DNA from: an uncultured bacterium
GTDB lineage: Bacteria > Patescibacteriota > Minisyncoccia > Phycocordibacterales > UBA9973
DNA: 33,750 bases
Direction of reading: 5' to 3'
Assembly: GCA_903929735.1 (NCBI GenBank)
Contig: CAIYVW010000006.1
Coordinates: forward strand, 1 to 33,750
In this document: positions 5,440-30,354 of the stretch, piece by piece
Numbering within the stretch: the first letter of the stretch is position 1
Layout: each line of letters starts with the position of its first letter
Position numbers and translations under genes: made by a program
Notes under the pieces: model-generated
Seen by the model: only the letters and a program-made list of their open reading frames with translations
Told to the model about the DNA's origin: nothing
Database searches by the model: none

Positions 5440-5465
5440 CCACTTATTTATGTATTTATATTCCC

Positions 5466-5512
5466 CAGACGTTGGACGTCTGGAGACTTTCTCTCCAGAC
5501 GTCCAACGTCTG
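5466..5512. repeat. Pair of 17-nt hairpins CAGACGTTGGACGTCTG / CAGACGTCCAACGTCTG, forming a longer stem-loop together
   Basis: Exact copies at 5466-5482 and 5496-5512; flanks CTGGAGA / TCTCCAG are also complementary. Confidence 0.95.
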
Positions 5513-5584
5513 GAGAAACCAGAAAAAACAAGAAAAAGTTTGTTATAAAATAAGGATATATTTTACACAGACGTTGGACGTCTG
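5492..5584. repeat. 93-bp direct repeat, copy 1 (hairpin - AAGAAAAAGTTTGTTATAAAATAAGGATAT - hairpin)
   Basis: Ungapped match to 7808-7900 at a constant offset of 2316; 30 bp exact at 5530-5559. Confidence 0.9.
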
Positions 5585-5614
5585 ACAGAACAACCTGCAG
5601 ACGTCCAACGTCTG
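5568..5614. repeat. Second pair of CAGACGT hairpins
   Basis: CAGACGTTGGACGTCTG at 5568-5584 and CAGACGTCCAACGTCTG at 5598-5614; a partial AGGTCCAACCTCAG follows at 5634. Confidence 0.93.
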
Positions 5615-5653
5615 GAAAAACGTCTGGAAAAATAGGTCCAACCTCAGATATAA

Positions 5654-7714: not shown

Positions 7715-7739
7715 CACTAAATAATAAAATATAAAAAAA

Positions 7740-7756
7740 CAGACGTTGGACGTCTG
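7740..7756. repeat. CAGACGTTGGACGTCTG hairpin
   Basis: Exact family member. Confidence 0.95.
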
Positions 7757-7807
7757 GGAAAAATAAAAGCTTATTTTATAAGTATTTTATTTTTAAAAAT
7801 TAGAAAA

Positions 7808-7900
7808 TCTCCAGACGTCCAACGTCTGGAGAAATTGGGAAAAATAAGAAAAAGTTTGTTATAAAATAAGGATATTTTAGCCCCAGACGTCCAACGTCTG
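7808..7900. repeat. 93-bp direct repeat, copy 2
   Basis: Hairpins at 7812-7828 and 7884-7900; 30 bp identical at 7846-7875 to 5530-5559. Confidence 0.9.
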
Positions 7901-7914
7901 GAGATAATAAACAA

Positions 7915-10670: not shown

Positions 10671-10788
10671 GGGGGGGTTCTTTTCTGTATCATTATAGGG
10701 TCCGGATAATTTCTTGCTAGAAATTTCCTCATTGCTCGGCTCGACAGCCTTGCGCACGCCCCTATAATGATACAAAAATAATCCCCCC
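10671..10788. repeat. Conserved intergenic structured element, copy A
   Basis: Core AGGGTCCGGATAATTTCTTGCTAGAAATTTCCTC...CTCGGCTCGACAGCCTTGCGCACGCCCCT inside perfect arms GTATCATTATAGGG (10687-10700) / CCCTATAATGATAC (10760-10773); arms extend to the flanking G/C runs. Confidence 0.85.
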
Positions 10789-14553: not shown

Positions 14554-14581
14554 GATTATTAAATTTTAAGTAACTATTACA

Positions 14582-14737
14582 AAGAAATCTGAATTAATAT
14601 CATTAAAGGGTCCGGATAAATTAGTTGGTAATAACCTAGAGGTCCAACCTCAGAAGCCAGCTAGAGGTTGGACCTCGATAATATCGGCTCGACAGCCTTG
14701 TGCACGCCCCTTTAATAATATTAATTCAAATTTCCTT
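14582..14737. repeat. Conserved intergenic structured element, copy B, containing a nested CAGAGGT composite hairpin
   Basis: Arms GAATTAATATCATTAAAGGG (14591-14610) / CCCTTTAATAATATTAATTC (14708-14727), 19/20; core ends AGGGTCCGGATAA and CGGCTCGACAGCCTTGTGCACGCCCCT; insert at 14638-14676. Confidence 0.85.
14638..14676. repeat. AGAGGT composite hairpin with GAAGCCAG loop, copy 2
   Basis: AGAGGTCCAACCTC-AGAAGCCAGCTA-GAGGTTGGACCTC. Confidence 0.9.
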
Positions 14738-15833: not shown

Positions 15834-15952
15834 GAGACTCATACAATATAGCTTCCCTCGAAGGACACGGATATTTTCTTGCTAGGAAATTCCTCGTGCT
15901 CGCCTCGACAGTCTCGCAAGCTCCTTCTTGGGAACTATATTGCAATCGTCTC
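15834..15952. repeat. Conserved intergenic structured element, copy C
   Basis: Core AGGACACGGATATTTTCTTGCTAGGAAATTCCTCGTGCTCGCCTCGACAGTCTCGCAAGCTCCTT; arms CAATATAG (15844-15851) / CTATATTG (15935-15942), extended imperfectly on both sides. Confidence 0.8.
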
Positions 15953-20614: not shown

Positions 20615-20620
20615 AGGACC

Positions 20621-20626
20621 ATTATA
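20621..20626 (-). promoter_or_regulatory. Extended -10 (TGGTATAAT), 6 nt from ATG 20614
   Basis: Minus strand reads TGGTATAAT-GGTCCT-ATG. Confidence 0.65.
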
Positions 20627-20629
20627 CCA

Positions 20630-20646
20630 CAGAGGTCTAACCTCTG
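20630..20646. repeat. CAGAGGTCTAACCTCTG hairpin
   Basis: Family member with one loop change. Confidence 0.93.
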
Positions 20647-20668
20647 ACAAAATGACAAAATCAAAAAT

Positions 20669-20695
20669 AAATAACCTTATATTATAAGGTTATTT
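20669..20695 (-). terminator. Terminator-like palindrome
   Basis: AAATAACCTTATA / TATAAGGTTATTT, followed on the minus strand by a T-rich tract. Confidence 0.7.
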
Positions 20696-20701
20696 TGTCG
20701 T

Positions 20702-20718
20702 CAGAGGTCCAACCTCTG
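20702..20718. repeat. CAGAGGTCCAACCTCTG hairpin directly abutting a stop codon
   Basis: Exact family member; permease stop codon is at 20719-20721. Confidence 0.95.
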
Positions 20719-29760: not shown

Positions 29761-29798
29761 CTTTACCTTCCTAACGCGATAGCGTTAAGATGGTAAAG
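29761..29798. repeat. Hairpin / inverted repeat, left copy
   Basis: CTTTACCTTCCTAACGC-GATA-GCGTTAAGATGGTAAAG. Confidence 0.92.
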
Positions 29799-29799
29799 T

Positions 29800-30300
29800 T
29801 TATTTATTTGGAATAAATCCCTTTTCAAGCTTAAATGTTTTAATAGTATCTTTTAGACCAATACTTTTAAGATACTCCATAAACTCTTTCGGTAGTGGTG
29901 ATGGCCCCACCCAAACACTTCGTTGTATTATTATAAAATTAAAATTGATGAGTTCCCTTCTAAGCCAATCTCTATGTGATTTTTTATCTTCTGGTACATC
30001 GTATAATAAAAGTAAATCCTTTGGATCTTTATCTGTCTTATTGGATTCAAATTTTTTAAAAATTAATTTTTCTTTTTGTAATAAAAATTCTTCTCCTTTA
30101 TGAGTAATAAAATAAACTCCATTAACCTCTTTTATGTATCCACTACTTTTCAAAAAGGAACATTTATTTGCAAGTGTTTGATATTTATAATATTTAAAAT
30201 CAGGTAAACCTAAAAAACCCAAACGAACTCCAGCATAACTAAGAACAGAACTATTTTTCTTTTCACTTAAATATTCTAAAATTAATTTCTCTGCTGTCAT
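29800..30300 (-). CDS. wHTH plus Cas2-like domain protein (PaaX-like / stand-alone Cas2-like)
   Basis: C-terminal LLLLYDVPEDKKSHRDWLRRELINFNFIIIQRSVWVGPSPLPKEFMEYLKSIGL resembles the Cas2/PaaX ferredoxin-like domain; N-terminal wHTH-like region; no CRISPR array or cas1 in window. Confidence 0.75.
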   Translation of the reverse strand: MTAEKLILEYLSEKKNSSVLSYAGVRLGFLGLPDFKYYKYQTLANKCSFLKSSGYIKEVNGVYFITHKGEEFLLQKEKLIFKKFESNKTDKDPKDLLLLYDVPEDKKSHRDWLRRELINFNFIIIQRSVWVGPSPLPKEFMEYLKSIGLKDTIKTFKLEKGFIPNK

Positions 30301-30319: not shown

Positions 30320-30354
30320 TTACCTTTCAAACGCGATAGCGTTAGGAAGGTAAA
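30320..30354. repeat. Hairpin / inverted repeat, right copy
   Basis: TTACCTTTCAAACGC-GATA-GCGTTAGGAAGGTAAA; the 16 nt GCGTTAGGAAGGTAAA is the exact reverse complement of 29762-29777. Confidence 0.92.

Follow-up and report, generated by a model that had tools for sequence, protein, structure and literature searches.

A dispersed hairpin element with a common fold and site-specific arms, intergenic and in coding genes, in Candidatus Nomurabacteria

Known palindromic repeats and the copies in the window

The best-known palindromic elements within coding sequence are those of Rickettsia and Wolbachia. The Rickettsia palindromic elements (RPEs) are small, form stem-loops of 105–146 bp, are found in intergenic regions as well as in frame in genes for conserved proteins, and are translated into additional peptide (PMC2229807). 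Over time they are reported to lose their repeat identity (PMC6649704). The GTAG REPs and REPINs are palindromic and multi-copy, too, have been reported also from inside genes, and have close copies in opposite orientation (PMC3733652). The element described here resembles the RPEs in being a long stem-loop of the class of about 100–150 bp with both intergenic and in-frame genic positions (PMC2229807, PMC3733652), but it belongs to a different phylum, has a three-way junction at its tip and outer arms unrelated between copies, keeps its complementarity by double changes, and lacks the CGTC end tag reported for the R. conorii RPE. It is best read as an element that works like RPEs, a likeness of behaviour drawn from their published descriptions. 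With REPs and REPINs it has in common that it is palindromic, multi-copy and inverted in all five pairs of close copies; however, REPs are 20–40 bp long with a fixed end tag and a link to RAYT transposases, whereas this element measures about 130–150 nt, has variable ends and showed no RAYT link. MITEs such as NEMIS/Correia, ERIC and RUP are likewise non-autonomous interspersed repeats, of 70–300 bp and without genes. Their terminal inverted repeats, as described, are common to all copies; since the termini of the present element are not shared between copies, it is not a classical MITE. Long complementary arms maintained in coding sequence are also a feature of the nematomorph mitochondrial palindromes (PMC6649704), but those have been described as inverted repeats spread over genes, whereas here a core is shared and dispersed. 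Within the open-access literature, which our search covered, we found no account of such elements in Patescibacteria. The family spans an order of this phylum and enters essential genes of ultra-small bacteria with genomes of about 0.7 Mb.

The element is a hairpin with a conserved tip of about 75 nt on a stem of about 25–30 bp. Three copies are located in the window, by which we mean the whole analysed stretch of 33,750 nt, contig 6 of a 763-kb Candidatus Nomurabacteria genome. Copy A occupies positions 10672–10788 of the plus strand, with arms of 29 nt (10672–10700 and 10760–10788) that are 86% complementary; its conserved three-way-junction tip (10698–10765, plus strand) consists of a GGAtAATTTC..GAAATTTCC hairpin and a GC(tc)GGCT-CGAC-AGCC(tt)GC hairpin. 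Copy B (14581–14737, plus strand) lies upstream of recA and has arms of 30 nt, 90% complementary. Its first hairpin is interrupted at about 14638–14676 by a second palindromic repeat, family D5 (AGAGGTCCAACCTC..GAGGTTGGACCTC). Copy C (about 15834–15952, plus strand), between recA and efp, represents a second subtype with the stem GAGAC/GTCTC, an internal loop, and then CAATATAG-C-TTCCC / GGGAA-CTATATTG. All three have a core of about 75 nt in common, and a long stem with a three-way junction bearing two hairpins forms on either strand. Compared with dinucleotide shuffles, the folding z-scores on the plus strand were -8.1 for A, -7.7 for B and -3.7 for C, and none of 200 shuffles folded as low. 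An initial annotation, made from the letters of the window, had placed copy A here, had noted the recurrence of the core at B and C, and had described two mini-hairpins within it. All this holds, with the first mini-hairpin of B split by the nested repeat. The genome-wide spread of copies, the bulged C and the 3x3 internal loop of the stem go beyond what it had noted.

Dispersal, gene contexts and coding sequence

A covariance-model search, which the initial annotation had proposed, found copies across the genome and its relatives. The model was built from six copies and seeded on those of the window; its E-values are rough, but the top matches are near E 1e-25. It matched copy A at 10692–10768 with 93.8 bits and located 14 places at E<=1 in the source genome, of which 11 have E-values below 1e-4. 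Among the relatives across the order, all compared as MAG assemblies, 53 of 61 carry copies, with a maximum of 44 per genome and a range of 3–35 among congeners. Sampled evenly across the phylum, 288 genomes yielded 20 positives, which were most frequent within this order and sporadic outside it. At the gathering score Rfam gave no match for the element and only tRNAs in the flanks; a permissive scan of copy A returned only weak miRNA-type matches, on a neighbouring hairpin. Thus neither the strict nor the permissive scan turned up a known Rfam family, which the initial annotation had named as a possible explanation of both arms. A self-cleaving ribozyme, considered as a lead, was dropped for want of Rfam support.

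We classified the genomic context of 148 copies with a simple home-made ORF caller: 78 lie between codirectional, 31 between convergent and 27 between divergent genes, and 12 were flagged inside ORFs, three of which (L081, L236, L242) may be start-codon artefacts. At the codirectional sites 40 copies run along the gene direction and 38 against it, and at one site upstream of recA the element has opposite orientations in G004 and G012. This orientation split, together with the spread of contexts, is what is expected of a DNA element and not of an RNA regulator or a terminator. Plain intrinsic terminators were rejected, as the numbers of divergent, convergent and codirectional sites form the wrong distribution. 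Five pairs of copies 46–97 nt apart, in five genomes, are all inverted, where about 0.7 pairs were expected; examples are G001:C6:67779-67975, G015:C3:13763-14000 and G004:C1:560596-560783.

Between the nearest relatives DNA identity in the recA/ftsK region is only about 80%; a more distant pair reaches 96%. No pair of near-identical strains captured an insertion. At this divergence loss as well as gain is compatible with most sites. A joined-flank search for empty sites recovered orthologous sites too diverged for the arms to be read, and gave no clean empty/filled pair that would establish a target-site duplication. Between recA and efp, where L057/G021 has the element, the element-free genomes G012 and G003 hold a palindrome of 13–16 nt (AGGAGAATATTCTCCT; AGGATAATATCCT). 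This would be consistent with the element entering a palindrome, or with a scar that its loss left behind.

Several congeners, the source genome among them, also carry the element within tsaD, in frame and free of stops. Further in-frame copies are found in recG, pheT and a cysteine desulfurase, these three named from sequence, and one relative has them in dus, rsmE and mnmA; Pfam confirms the identity of TsaD, RsmE, Dus and MnmA. Element-free congeners have a short native loop at the coding site. In recG and tsaD the longest perfect inverted repeat amounts to 5–8 bp without the element and to 16–18 bp with it. The right arm in recG aligns with native residues (..LSDLK.. versus ..KLDVK..), whereas the left arm is without a native counterpart; this alignment would agree with inverted copying of the right flank, and is suggestive only. 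Some in-frame loops in the tRNA-modification and repair enzymes of these genomes, which could be mistaken for lineage-specific protein domains, are accounted for by this family.

Several observations on these sites may be added. The TsaD loop between GGPEISKLA and LPRPM (L264–L287) is a hot spot where at least three unrelated palindromic families, all in frame, are found within one genus; in G003 it holds an apparent scar. In the distant genomes G017 (L214) and G062 (L254) dus carries the element at nearly the same place, with similar peptides (KSTN..FSAR.SRPAQGFS). At least three further core families are built alike, with a conserved GC-rich core enclosed by long complementary arms specific to the site, and occupy either the same intergenic positions or the tsaD loop: TTTACCCAG..CTGGGCTCCGAC (L135, L139, L059, L061), GTCCTCGG..GCCAGAC (L138, L139 and, in tsaD, L265, L267, L268, L278) and CTTATCCC..GGCGCGCCCACACC (L056, L063, L067).

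Stem anatomy, covariation and the outer arms

In the largest subtype the stem begins with a site-specific arm of 13 nt, often with a central 3x3 internal loop (TTC/TAC-like). Inward follow ATAG/CTAT and a bulged C, which 61 of 71 copies have, then TCTT/AAGA, a short internal loop, AGAGGG/CCCTCT and the junction. The outermost 13 nt vary among copies and show no conserved end, neither a CGTC nor a GTAG tag. Counted position by position beyond ATAG/CTAT in 71 copies, pairing is 0.86–0.96 at positions 1–5, dips at positions 6–9, returns to 0.75–0.87 at positions 10–13, and then falls to 0.44 at position 14 and to background (about 0.3) by position 18. When left arms were set against right arms of other copies, pairing was about 0.3 past the A/T-rich first two positions. 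The drop after position 13 indicates that the stem has a defined outer end.

That differences between the arms preserve pairing had been proposed in the initial annotation from three loci, and orthologous copies bear it out, as double changes maintain the structure in recG and tsaD. Across seven species with the element in recG, 95.9% of cells are paired and 18 of 42 pairs show double changes; in tsaD these occur in 15 of 34 pairs. The covariation score for recG is 0.408; when partners were slid by 1–3 columns, a control that retains relatedness, only 30–50% of cells were paired and the score fell to 0.05–0.11. None of 500 shuffles reached the observed score, a kind of test that is inflated by relatedness.

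How the arms relate to the remainder of the element is seen best from copies within one genome. Taking the stretch from ATAG to CTAT, about 93 nt, as the inner unit, we found 24 same-genome pairs of copies, drawn from four genomes, in which the inner units have an identity of 93% or more, and of 100% in two pairs. Within such pairs the outer 13 nt are no closer to each other than in random pairs of copies (0.41 compared with 0.39). Most copies nevertheless pair their own arms: in the listed near-identical pairs mostly 9–13 of the 13 arm positions are complementary, and 7 in one copy. Hence the arms do not descend together with the unit, yet are self-complementary at each site. The expectation that complementary flanks accompany the core was borne out, and the contrary case, genome-wide copies lacking them, did not appear. 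Locus-specific matching arms are a hint at a novel mode of DNA copying or insertion. With identical centres on unrelated, self-complementary arms of fixed length, the insertion and upkeep of palindromes by selfish elements become testable.

Possible origins of the arms

The element is dispersed and has a common fold, its arms are site-specific, and it is present in coding genes and absent there in relatives. It is best read as neither an RNA gene nor simply a core dropped into ready-made palindromes. We think it likely that these copies form a single family of DNA elements, small, non-autonomous and hairpin-forming, which spread within Nomurabacteria genomes, the inner unit moving and the outer arms being remade at each site. 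The moving part would be the inner unit, that is the tip and inner stem from ATAG to CTAT, probably in the form of a folded single strand on which a putative enzyme acts. The outer arms of about 13 bp would arise afresh at each site, and the most likely route is inverted copying of one flank through hairpin-primed or template-switching synthesis. Later upkeep of the structure may be due to selection on foldable copies, to hairpin-templated correction, or to both. Two findings fit this reading less well: plain inverted copying would not predict the 3x3 internal loop and the bulged C, and the element-free palindromes between recA and efp fit a prior palindrome or a scar.

The latter point leads to the alternative that a conserved core enters the centre of existing palindromes, for example bidirectional terminators, with arms that are purely target sequence. 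Many copies are indeed flanked by A..T runs in the manner of such terminators (L240, L163, L026), several unrelated core families share the same sites, and at the recA-efp site the idea, already raised in the initial annotation, fits. It does not fit recG and tsaD, where element-free genes lack repeats of comparable length, nor the fixed distance at which arm pairing ends, and intergenic copies are found between divergent genes as often as between convergent ones. As a general account we judge it unlikely, while for intergenic sites it is a live rival. The arms could also be a mutational by-product, one arm being repeatedly copied onto the other by template switching without selection, as has also been proposed for the nematomorph coding palindromes (PMC6649704). 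Perfect arms, a fast turnover of their sequence and an inverted core at an orthologous site (G004 versus G012) are to be expected then. However, the bulged C and the internal loop persist although correction should erase them, and the dispersal is left unexplained; this possibility seems doubtful to us, if worth keeping in mind.

Selection on a transcript, either a cis-regulator or a small RNA, would account for the strong covariation, the three-way junction, the bulged C and the internal loop. Of the proposal that a folded RNA or single-stranded DNA is under selection, the structural part stands; an RNA gene is very improbable, given the even split of orientations, copies on either strand of coding genes, the variable copy number, and the lack of a constant partner gene and of an Rfam match. 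Mobilisation as a REP/REPIN-type element by the RAYT (Y1 tyrosine) transposases of these genomes is suggested by RAYT-like genes (PF01797) in 38 of the 61 relatives, with three such genes in the source genome, and by the excess of close inverted pairs, which resemble REP dimers. But G049 and G054 have 29 and 26 copies without a Y1 match, G055 and G053 have 4 and 3 Y1 matches and zero copies, and a GTAG end tag is missing. None of the three Y1 genes of the source genome has the element within 350 bp, and two are flanked by other palindromes. With neither co-occurrence among the 61 relatives nor linkage within 350 bp in the source genome, we rejected this explanation as improbable.

Returning to a DNA element whose arms are remade at each site, we tentatively consider a more specific form of it, in which insertion would build an inverted copy of the target flank, of a defined length of about 13 nt, in place of a direct target-site duplication, and in which this mode would be common to several unrelated core families. 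If true, inverted flank copying would be a transposition chemistry without a described precedent among known elements.

Other repeats were noted in passing. At 5449–5620, 7734–7906 and 20618–20718 of the window inverted palindromes occur in pairs (CAGACGTCCAACGTCTG / CAGAGGTCCAACCTCTG) and resemble REPIN-type doublets. Palindromes of the CAGACGTCCAACGTCTG type flank a Y1 transposase gene elsewhere in the source genome (G000:C12, L191). Finally, a 35-nt repeat (TTACCTTCCTAACGCGATAGCGTTA..) is located at 29762–29797 and 30320–30354, on both sides of a small ORF at 29800–30300.
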